NCBI RefSeq assembly: GCF_039555535.1
Contig: NZ_CP154630.1
Span: 3,857,001-3,921,000, forward strand
Origin: Stenotrophomonas maltophilia
GTDB taxonomy: Bacteria > Pseudomonadota > Gammaproteobacteria > Xanthomonadales > Xanthomonadaceae
Direction of reading: 5' to 3'
Length of the DNA: 64,000 nucleotides
Part shown: positions 13,111 through 23,321 of the stretch, one piece after another
Position numbering within the stretch: position 1 is the first letter of the stretch
Layout of the letters: each line of letters opens with the position of its first letter
The notes under the pieces: model-generated
Databases searched by the model: none
What the model saw: the letters and a program-made list of their open reading frames with translations, nothing else
What the model was told of the DNA's origin: nothing
Position numbers and translations under genes: made by a program

Positions 13111-13205
13111 CCCGCTAGTGTAGAGGCGGGTCGAGGGTTGCCCGTGCGACGAACCGTCGCAGGAGGGGGTTTGTCGGCAGGGCTGCGCCCTGCACCTGCC
13201 GAATC

Positions 13206-13354
13206 AACGTCAACGTCAAAAGCGGGCAATCCGTGGGATGGCGGGGTGGGTCCGGTTGCGGGAGACGCCGTAAACCCGTCCTTGGGGGCTTGGCCGCGGC
13301 ATCCATGCCGCGGACACTCCCGCAACCGGACCCACCCCGCCTTCGACAGATTTC
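13206..13354 (+). repeat. Structured repeat element, copy A
   Basis: In order: a short hexamer repeat (AACGTC twice, 13206-13217), the conserved flank GCGGGCAATCCGTGGG, and a perfect 25-bp stem (13240-13264 with 13317-13341). The stem encloses a 52-nt core (13265-13316), and the 3' flank is CCTTCGACAGATTTC. The core holds its own 9-bp hairpin (13294-13302 with 13305-13313). No open frame crosses it with coding character. The same architecture recurs in copies B and C with different stem sequence. It is possibly an RNA or DNA hairpin element of a mobile family; function unknown. Confidence 0.8.
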
Positions 13355-13376
13355 TGCGATCTGTTGGAACGGCTTT

Positions 13377-13417
13377 GGGGTCAGATCCGTTTTCCGAAGG
13401 AAAACGGATCTGACCCC
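13377..13417. repeat. Perfect 19-bp GGGGTCAGA palindrome
   Basis: Arms GGGGTCAGATCCGTTTTCC (13377-13395) and its exact complement (13399-13417) with a GAA loop. It is the longest perfect member of the family in this window. It sits inside the repeat nest between the DUF2946 gene and cysB, 23 bp after copy A of the structured element. Confidence 0.85.
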
Positions 13418-13444
13418 AGATGTATTTCGATATCTGACAGCTTT

Positions 13445-13493
13445 CATCCACGCATGGCGTGGATCTACCGAGTCGACCAAGGTCGACACCTAC
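13445..13493 (-). repeat. Two tandem SMAG-type GTAG palindromes
   Basis: Read on the minus strand, two palindromes start with GTAG: one with GTAGATCCACGCC (13445-13468) and one with GTAGGTGTCGACC (13470-13493). They lie in direct orientation, one base apart, between copies A and C of the larger structured element. Confidence 0.8.
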
Positions 13494-13505
13494 CAACAGC
13501 CGCCG

Positions 13506-13658
13506 GAATCTGTCAGAGGTGGGGCGGTGTCGGAGTGCGGGGTGTCAGCCGCATGGATGCGGCTGCCAAGCTTACAGGGACGTACTTGCAGCGTCCCCGC
13601 ACTCCGACACCGCCCCGCCAACCCACGGAATGCCGCTTCTGCTGTTGCTGTTGCTGTT
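13506..13658 (-). repeat. Structured repeat element, copy C (inverted)
   Basis: Read on the minus strand it has the same order as copy A: hexamer repeats (AACAGC about three times, 13641-13658), flank AAGCGGCATTCCGTGGG, perfect 22-bp stem (13595-13616 with 13521-13542), 52-nt core (13543-13594), then CCTCTGACAGATTCC. The inner hairpin is CAGCCGCAT/ATGCGGCTG where copy A has CCGCGGCAT/ATGCCGCGG, so the base pairs differ but pairing is kept. It lies 165 bp from copy A in opposite orientation. Confidence 0.8.
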
Positions 13659-13707
13659 GCTTGAATGCCGCGGCAGATGCAGGGCTGCAAGCCCTGCTCG
13701 ACCAACC

Positions 13708-22870: not shown

Positions 22871-23053
22871 GGCAACGGCAACGGCAACAGCAACTGCAAC
22901 TGCCAAAGCGCTGGCGCTTCATGATGCCGGGGGTGGGCCGGGGCGGTGTGGGCTGGCAGGGGACGCCGTGAACCCATCCTTGGGGGCTTGGCCGCGGCAT
23001 CCATGCCGCGGACACCCCTGCCAACCCACACCGCCCCGGCCTCGACAGGTTCA
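22871..23053 (+). repeat. Structured repeat element, copy B, with hexamer tract
   Basis: Six hexamers of the GGCAAC/AGCAAC/TGCAAC type (22871-22906) precede the element. The stem is 27 bp (22936-22962 with 23015-23041) with a single mismatch, enclosing a 52-nt core (22963-23014) that differs from the copy A core at only two positions. The stem sequence is unlike that of copies A and C. The 3' flank CCTCGACAGGTTC matches the other copies. Confidence 0.8.
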
Positions 23054-23112
23054 TGAGGTAGAGCGGATGGCAAAAGGCAAGAGCGGTTTCTGATGTCGGA
23101 CGGAGAAGGAAT

Positions 23113-23178
23113 GTAGAGCCGAGCCCATGCTCGGCTGGAGATTTCGCGGAGAGCAGCCGAGCGCGGGCTCGGCTCTAC
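23113..23178. repeat. Head-to-head SMAG pair
   Basis: GTAGAGCCGAGCCCATGC (from 23113) on the plus strand and the inverted partner ending at 23178. Nearly the same sequence as the pairs at 20870 and 58053. Confidence 0.85.
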
Positions 23179-23239
23179 AAAGAGCGCCCAGCCAGGCAGC
23201 TTTTGCTCTTCTTCTTTCTTTCCGTGGGTGGAAGCAACC

Positions 23240-23321
23240 GGAAACTGTCAAAGGACGTACTTGCGGCGTCCCCCGCGAACCCACCCCGCCCGGCCAAGCG
23301 CGGCTTTTGCTTTTGCTTTGC
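23240..23321 (-). repeat. Structured repeat element, copy D (internally deleted)
   Basis: Read on the minus strand: hexamers of the GCAAAA type (23304-23321), one stem arm resembling that of copy A (GGCGGGGTGGGTTCGCGGGGG, 23270-23290), and the first third of the core ending CGTCC. It then jumps directly to the 3' flank TTTGACAGTTTCC. The inner hairpin and the second stem arm are missing, so it cannot form the long stem. Confidence 0.65.

Follow-up and report, generated by a model that had tools for sequence, protein, structure and literature searches.

The window analysed here, a stretch of 64,000 nucleotides from Stenotrophomonas maltophilia, contains three long hairpins, A, B and C, and the remnant of a fourth, D. 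Hairpin A (13240..13341) has a 25-bp stem, hairpin C (13521..13616) a 22-bp stem and hairpin B (22936..23041) a 27-bp stem with one mismatch, and each stem closes a loop of 52 nt. Stem and loop lengths agree with the preliminary description, according to which A, B and C share one architecture. The RNA sense strand, as we call the strand on which the motif CANGGANG is read, is the minus strand for A and B and the plus strand for C, i.e., in each case the strand opposite to the one first described. Within the loop lie two inner hairpins, H1 and H2. H2 carries CATGGATG in its apical loop in all three copies (A, 13300..13307, minus strand; C, 13552..13559, plus strand; B, 22998..23005, minus strand). 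H1 carries CAAGGACG in A (13277..13284, minus strand), CAAGGATG in B (22975..22982, minus strand) and CAGGGACG in C (13575..13582, plus strand). The compensating changes previously noted in the inner stem of these copies are present. The conserved flanks hold up in part: GACAG is common to all three copies, but the bases beyond it differ, and the flank on the other side, AATCCGTGGG in A and ATTCCGTGGG in C, is absent from B. Folded as DNA, hairpin A has a z of −10.4. The gene downstream of hairpin B, judging by how its start reads, is presumably pgk. D (23243..23295, plus strand) is the truncated partner of B, reduced to the 3' arm and a portion of the loop; it has no complete CANGGANG and is not among the 134 genomic matches described below. 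At the orthologous site in locus L083, a fuller copy of D is present.

Beyond the first reading, which had not recognized the composites, the RsmA/CsrA motif or the opposite strand as the informative one, we find that A and C are the two halves of one convergent composite, as are B and D. The centre of composite A–C (13342..13520) contains a GGGGTCAGATCC palindrome and REP-like palindromes. Its ends carry outer microsatellites, (CAACGT)n on the left (13205..13219) and (TGCTGT)n on the right (13640..13662), and small end hairpins, GCAGGGC-TGC-GCCCTGC (13177..13193), similar to ones at the ends of other composites, and GCAGGGC-TGCAA-GCCCTGC (13679..13697). Most of 12 inspected composites are layered in the same manner, i.e., a small end hairpin, a CAACNG-type microsatellite, the big hairpin and the centre, followed by the mirror image, with SMAG-like or GGGGTCAGATCC palindromes in the centres; L013, L017 and L018 break the symmetry at one or both ends. 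The hexamer microsatellites, found at the outer ends of most of these composites, are of the type (CAACAG/CAACGG/CAACGT)n, and the array in L015 spans ∼70 nt or more. A palindrome, GGGGTCAGATCCGTTTTCC..GGAAAACGGATCTGACCCC, at 13377-13417 recurs in the centres of several composites. The centre of composite B–D holds a SMAG-like REP pair (TGTAGAGCCGAGCCCATGCTCGGCT and its near-inverse) at 23112-23179, and this REP is the Smal1 REP described in PMC2817692. By eye, inserts of other hairpin-rich sequence occur within the H2 loop in L007, L324 and L340 and within the H1 loop in L090, L127, L339, L349 and L353, giving the impression that a second element has the apical loops as its target. In L078 (1467-2530), a convergent pair with its members 968 bp apart surrounds one complete gene, which we take to be eda; this may be a case of cargo carriage.

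In the genome, of 4.83 Mb, there are 59 occurrences of the core pattern and one of the reversed pattern. Thirty-two copies, 3 from the window and 29 from 18 of 20 fetched loci (L002 is without a family hairpin, and the hairpin of L009 was left out), were used to build a covariance model, R1. The genome search that the preliminary description had proposed for such a model returned many copies: at least 134 matches at E ≤ 0.01, a lower bound as 150 of 5456 candidates were scored, and 132 of these matches are at 1.5e-9 or better. Thus, the original observation is real and larger than first noted, and the hairpins are members of a widespread structured element. Among the matches listed, 43 neighbour pairs lie within 3 kb of each other. 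All 41 pairs closer than 1 kb are convergent (plus then minus on the strand of the model), and 40 close pairs fall within 450 bp, compared to 1.6 on average under random placement. In a wider genome scan, seven close pairs are opposed as in S. maltophilia and two are in tandem (L239 and L284).

The consensus structure computed with RNAalifold is a three-way junction that holds two inner hairpins within the 52-nt loop. On the strand first described, the 32 copies have a covariation score of 0.564 against a shuffled mean of 0.143, and none of 500 shuffles scored as high. On the sense strand, the score is 0.596 against 0.160 for shuffles; among the 30 distinct rows, 98.0% of 1110 cells are paired, although the relatedness of the copies means that such cell counts overstate independence, the outer stem is 99.4% paired, double changes occur at 27 of 37 pairs, and two H2 pairs are unpaired in 9 of the rows. 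In single-sequence RNA folds of the sense strand, which are very stable, all five copies analysed (A, B, C, L059 and L050) retain the outer stem. A, B and L059 place the GGA triplets in apical loops, C in its minimum-energy fold has part of the H1 motif paired, and L050 folds without either small hairpin.

Most outer-stem mismatches are A-C on the strand first described and, thus, G-U on the other strand. Counted on the sense strand, G-U exceeds A-C by 49 to 7 in the 119 distinct copies of this genome (binomial p = 7e-9, an optimistic value because the copies are related), by 31 to 9 in two further families of the order (28 copies), by 45 to 18 in 67 copies from relatives of the same genus, and by 136 to 48 in 96 copies from the genome scan. 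All copies were collected with a model or pattern that includes the motif. Of the 134 own copies, 11 had matches of a length other than 96 nt and did not enter the motif and G-U counts, which leaves 123 rows (119 distinct for G-U); 29 of 35 matches from the other families (28 distinct) and 73 of 136 from the same-genus relatives (67 distinct) were used. The omissions from these two sets are weak reverse-strand duplicates, overlaps, the cut-off copy in L065, a few low scorers and L127, which has an insertion, and the same-genus model search left aside 27 of 60 ortholog loci (L099-L111, L130-L141, and L082 and L112 from the own genome). The excess of G-U over A-C suggests that pairing is selected in RNA of the sense strand. 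Left and right partners, single copies on either strand and the two halves of the genome all show it, which makes strand-biased mutation of the chromosome a poor explanation; by gene context, the excess is evident in convergent, sense and antisense settings, and divergent settings contribute 1 G-U and 2 A-C. Altogether, there is good support for selection at the RNA level on one of the strands. Selection on a folded nucleic acid, as originally suggested, can thereby be confined to one strand, as RNA (or single-stranded nucleic acid), while most of the data can be explained without the copying mechanism that was suggested to regenerate the stem, even though swaps of hairpins at a fixed site do occur. 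Hairpin-templated DNA correction was first suggested by the finding of only one one-sided outer-stem change of the G-U type on the strand first described; this argument was dropped because most of the seemingly unpaired cells are G-U pairs on the other strand.

Orthologous sites illustrate how stems change. In the orthologous pair of genomes G050 and G176, the loops are identical at 52 of 52 positions, and the stem has changed at 8 positions on both sides and at 3 on one side (hand count); this hairpin lies at the 3' end of a gene that is 90% identical between the two genomes and that we take to be tatC-like. Across species, inspection by eye of the A–C and B–D loci revealed swaps of stem or loop type within conserved surroundings as well as species without one or both hairpins, the losses looking like plain deletions. 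In L094, L122, L125 and L126, one or more hairpins appear by eye to have been lost by ragged-ended deletions rather than by clean excision. In a comparison with MITEs, which have terminal inverted repeats and a target-site duplication, no clean insertion boundary was seen by eye at the copy-free sites in L095, L097 and L103. One hairpin site adjoins what is presumably a fadA-like gene, which was found in all 60 sampled members of the genus. At least one hairpin with both motifs lies near this gene in 26 of 30 fetched loci, and the first hairpin has the start of the loop in 28 of the 30 and a 52-nt loop in 22, a few being broken; 20 of these 22 rows were aligned, with L328 and L353 omitted on account of broken outer pairing. 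Genomes G020 and G012, with one model match each, have their copy at this site, and both copies are decayed, the one in G020 being without the full H1 motif.

More than 100 copies, and a single site whose stem or loop type differs from species to species, are what would be expected of a mobile palindrome acting at the DNA level, i.e., a single-stranded DNA hairpin recognized by a transposase or spread by conversion, in which stems are corrected from a template and the loops are the recognition site of a protein. Precedents for this scenario are template switching, by which hairpins are said to arise and be maintained (PMC8794818), and the Yersinia palindrome YPAL, described as recently mobile (PMC2229807). 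We nevertheless regard it as unlikely. The asymmetry between G-U and A-C is strand specific; the loop is never flipped relative to its partner in the 41 of 41 pairs in this genome; and 63 of 123 copies contain at least one imperfect stem pair that was left uncorrected. Moreover, the four places with a Y1 transposase in this genome are, by eye, at least 6 kb away from the listed copies, Y1 genes are present in seven of nine copy-free genomes of the genus (G004, G007, G024, G025, G028, G030 and G034), and the losses, again by eye, resemble ordinary deletions.

The motif CANGGANG is near invariant. On the sense strand, it is at the tip of H2 in 122 of 123 copies, at the tip of H1 in 122 of 123 and at both in 121, and two motifs per copy are also found in 24 of 28 copies from other families and 60 of 67 from relatives. 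Its fixed letters are conserved at 99.2 to 100%, while the two N positions of H1 are at 45% and 68%; those of H2 hardly vary in this genome and are variable elsewhere. The remaining loop positions average 80%, with 13 of 36 at 97% or more, so that the motif is not the sole constant part of the loop. This constancy, the relatedness of the copies and a background frequency of 0.47 per kb, at which a single CANGGANG is not rare, are compatible with a motif met by chance, in which CATCCATG is a good hairpin cap kept by common ancestry and not for a function. We consider this very improbable since the inner stems have changed repeatedly around the unchanged motif (CCC/GGG, TAC/GTA, TCC/GGA and, in L044, AAAAA/TTTTT) and have done so across families as well. 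In most copies, the two motifs are 23 nt apart, a distance that a CsrA dimer can bridge. The consensus for RsmA of P. aeruginosa is CANGGAYG and that from SELEX with E. coli CsrA is RUACARGGAUGU (PMC7705225); ACARGGAUG has also been given as a consensus (PMC3937308). The apical-loop motif corresponds to this RsmA/CsrA consensus, and from the match we infer docking of RsmA/CsrA as the best-fitting reading.

The element is intergenic: none of the 134 listed copies has its midpoint inside a gene called by a simple caller based on codon usage. Of the 40 close pairs, 20 are flanked by convergent genes, 17 by co-directional and 3 by divergent genes, compared to 62 convergent arrangements among all 315 gene neighbours of the fetched loci, which were chosen around copies; the p-value for the orientation of the pairs takes them as independent. 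Such placement, with its enrichment of pairs between convergent genes, and the very stable folds would also suit an element for transcription end or mRNA stability, in which the stem protects against exonucleases or promotes termination and the inner loops are sites for an RNase or a protein other than RsmA/CsrA. In our estimation, this is quite improbable: the stems of the listed hairpins are not followed by a T-run, and a plain stem would not need a letter-by-letter match to CANGGANG in which the N positions of H1 vary. Single copies with co-directional flanks are in the sense orientation in 15 cases and antisense in 14, and neither this equal placement nor the excess of G-U in copies antisense to their neighbours is expected of a simple cis role upon read-through.

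We propose that the hairpin family is, with fair probability, a dispersed RNA element offering a predicted two-site dock for RsmA/CsrA. According to this model, each hairpin would be one half of a dispersed intergenic element that acts as RNA of the strand opposite to the one first described. The long outer stem, free in sequence and kept paired, would close a three-way junction presenting two small hairpins, each tipped by CANGGANG, that could fit one RsmA/CsrA dimer. Because the halves of a composite face each other, the second hairpin would be in sense whichever way transcription crosses. The hairpins would be transcribed, putatively bind RsmA/CsrA and exert an effect; as to the outcome, our guess is that they either titrate RsmA/CsrA via many sites or mark the transcripts next to them for its control. 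According to PMC3937308 and PMC7694677, antagonists of RsmA of the rsmB type are lacking in xanthomonads. A more tentative extension, which we consider possible but doubtful, is that a repeat found throughout the Gammaproteobacteria constitutes a distributed RsmA/CsrA sponge that, with ∼250 candidate docking sites in this genome arranged in orientation-proof pairs, replaces the CsrB/RsmZ that xanthomonads are without. If so, RsmA activity would track overall transcription and not a single sRNA. Should RsmA/CsrA indeed bind the hairpins, what passes for an abundant "junk" palindrome would turn out to be a layer of regulation, Ysr224, a Yersinia sRNA so far unexplained, would gain kin, and the question of how RsmA is tuned in Xanthomonadaceae would become testable. 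The family would, moreover, be a remarkable example of stems whose pairing is fixed while their sequence is free.

With strict filters, R1 matches were found in 32 of 61 relatives (4 of 20 genera) and in 31 of 119 family members (16 of 54 genera); the copies per genome are lower bounds, as no more than 68 candidates were scored in any genome of the relatives and no more than 35 in any genome of the family members. A scan of a genome collection with a sense-strand pattern chosen as rare in Stenotrophomonas identified at least 117 stretches. Going by their organism names, we take 78 of the 80 stretches listed to be from Gammaproteobacteria, and the remaining two are from a Rhodobacteraceae MAG and an unplaced Proteobacteria MAG. 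The genera listed include Marinobacter, Halopseudomonas, Methylotuvimicrobium, Ectothiorhodospira, Thioalkalivibrio, Sedimenticola, Rheinheimera and Thermomonas. With the 52-nt loop as query, E. coli genomes, plasmids and phages gave no match.

The statement in the preliminary description that no named element matches was not quite right. Ysr224 (Rfam RF02770), a Yersinia sRNA, is a relative, though one that scores below the curated cut-off: its best match has 42.7 bits (range about 20-43) against a gathering cut-off of 70. The 3' half of Ysr224 has the core of the family (ACGCcGuaAAuaCauCCaUGUAgGCuCG...GCGCCaUCCcuGGCGC), its 5' half differs, and the Rfam model represents the strand antisense to CANGGANG. 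All 95 genome matches listed for Ysr224, a lower bound with 150 of 1197 candidates scored, fall on R1 copies and on the same strand as R1; the model also has a sub-threshold match in the E. coli control genome. Within the 64-kb window, no Rfam family, the CsrB and RsmX/Y/Z sRNAs included, has a match at its gathering cut-off, and Rfam miRNA matches to the long stem were taken as chance matches to a stem. Among titles and the openings of abstracts, we found no account of the family or of such a repeat as an RsmA/CsrA site, and one may exist elsewhere.

Among dispersed palindromes, the REP/SMAG elements of Stenotrophomonas (PMC2817692) have a GTAG (GTRG) head and a palindrome of 20-40 bp, and SMAG-like units sit in the centres of the composites. 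By contrast, the hairpins in the window are without a GTAG head and have stems of 22-27 bp and a 52-nt loop, the stem of the family being far longer than that of REP/SMAG. REP/SMAG-RAYT units have a flanking Y1 gene and the hairpins do not, the nearest listed copy to any of the four Y1 places being, by eye, ∼6 kb away. A Y1/RAYT transposase was rejected as partner of the family, as it is found in 51 of 61 genomes, including the copy-free members of the genus named above, and not near the listed copies. AAV-like flip-flop ends were rejected as well, given the constant orientation of the loops in the close pairs. YPAL/RU-2 of Yersinia is a dispersed intergenic palindrome of ∼168 bp that may influence upstream transcripts (PMC2229807); its likeness to the hairpin family is one of description, and the section of PMC2229807 that describes it ascribes to it no role involving RsmA/CsrA. 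The same kind of likeness applies to intergenic RNAs adjacent to ISPpu8 in P. putida, including a "long palindromic region," which were pulled down by all three Rsm proteins, RsmA, RsmE and RsmI (PMC7937890).

The closest element in concept is the TwoAYGGAY RNA (RF01731), a predicted CsrA binder (PMC4333381). Its layout of two hairpins with GGA loops within an external stem is also that of the consensus structure of the hairpin family, and is not fully displayed by the single-sequence folds of C and L050; RF01731 itself had no match up to an E of 10 at the A–C locus, 5 at three loci and 1 at eight loci. CsrB/RsmB, RsmX/Y/Z and RsmU of Xanthomonas, which is described as deriving from a 3' UTR (PMC7694677) and as reported only from Xanthomonas, all contain GGA motifs for RsmA/CsrA, as do the hairpins. 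As in CsrB and RsmX/Y/Z, the GGA of the hairpin family lies in hairpin loops, with 121 of 123 copies having it at both hairpin tips of the consensus structure. These known RNAs are single sRNA genes; in contrast, the hairpin family consists of more than 100 dispersed copies with two motifs each.
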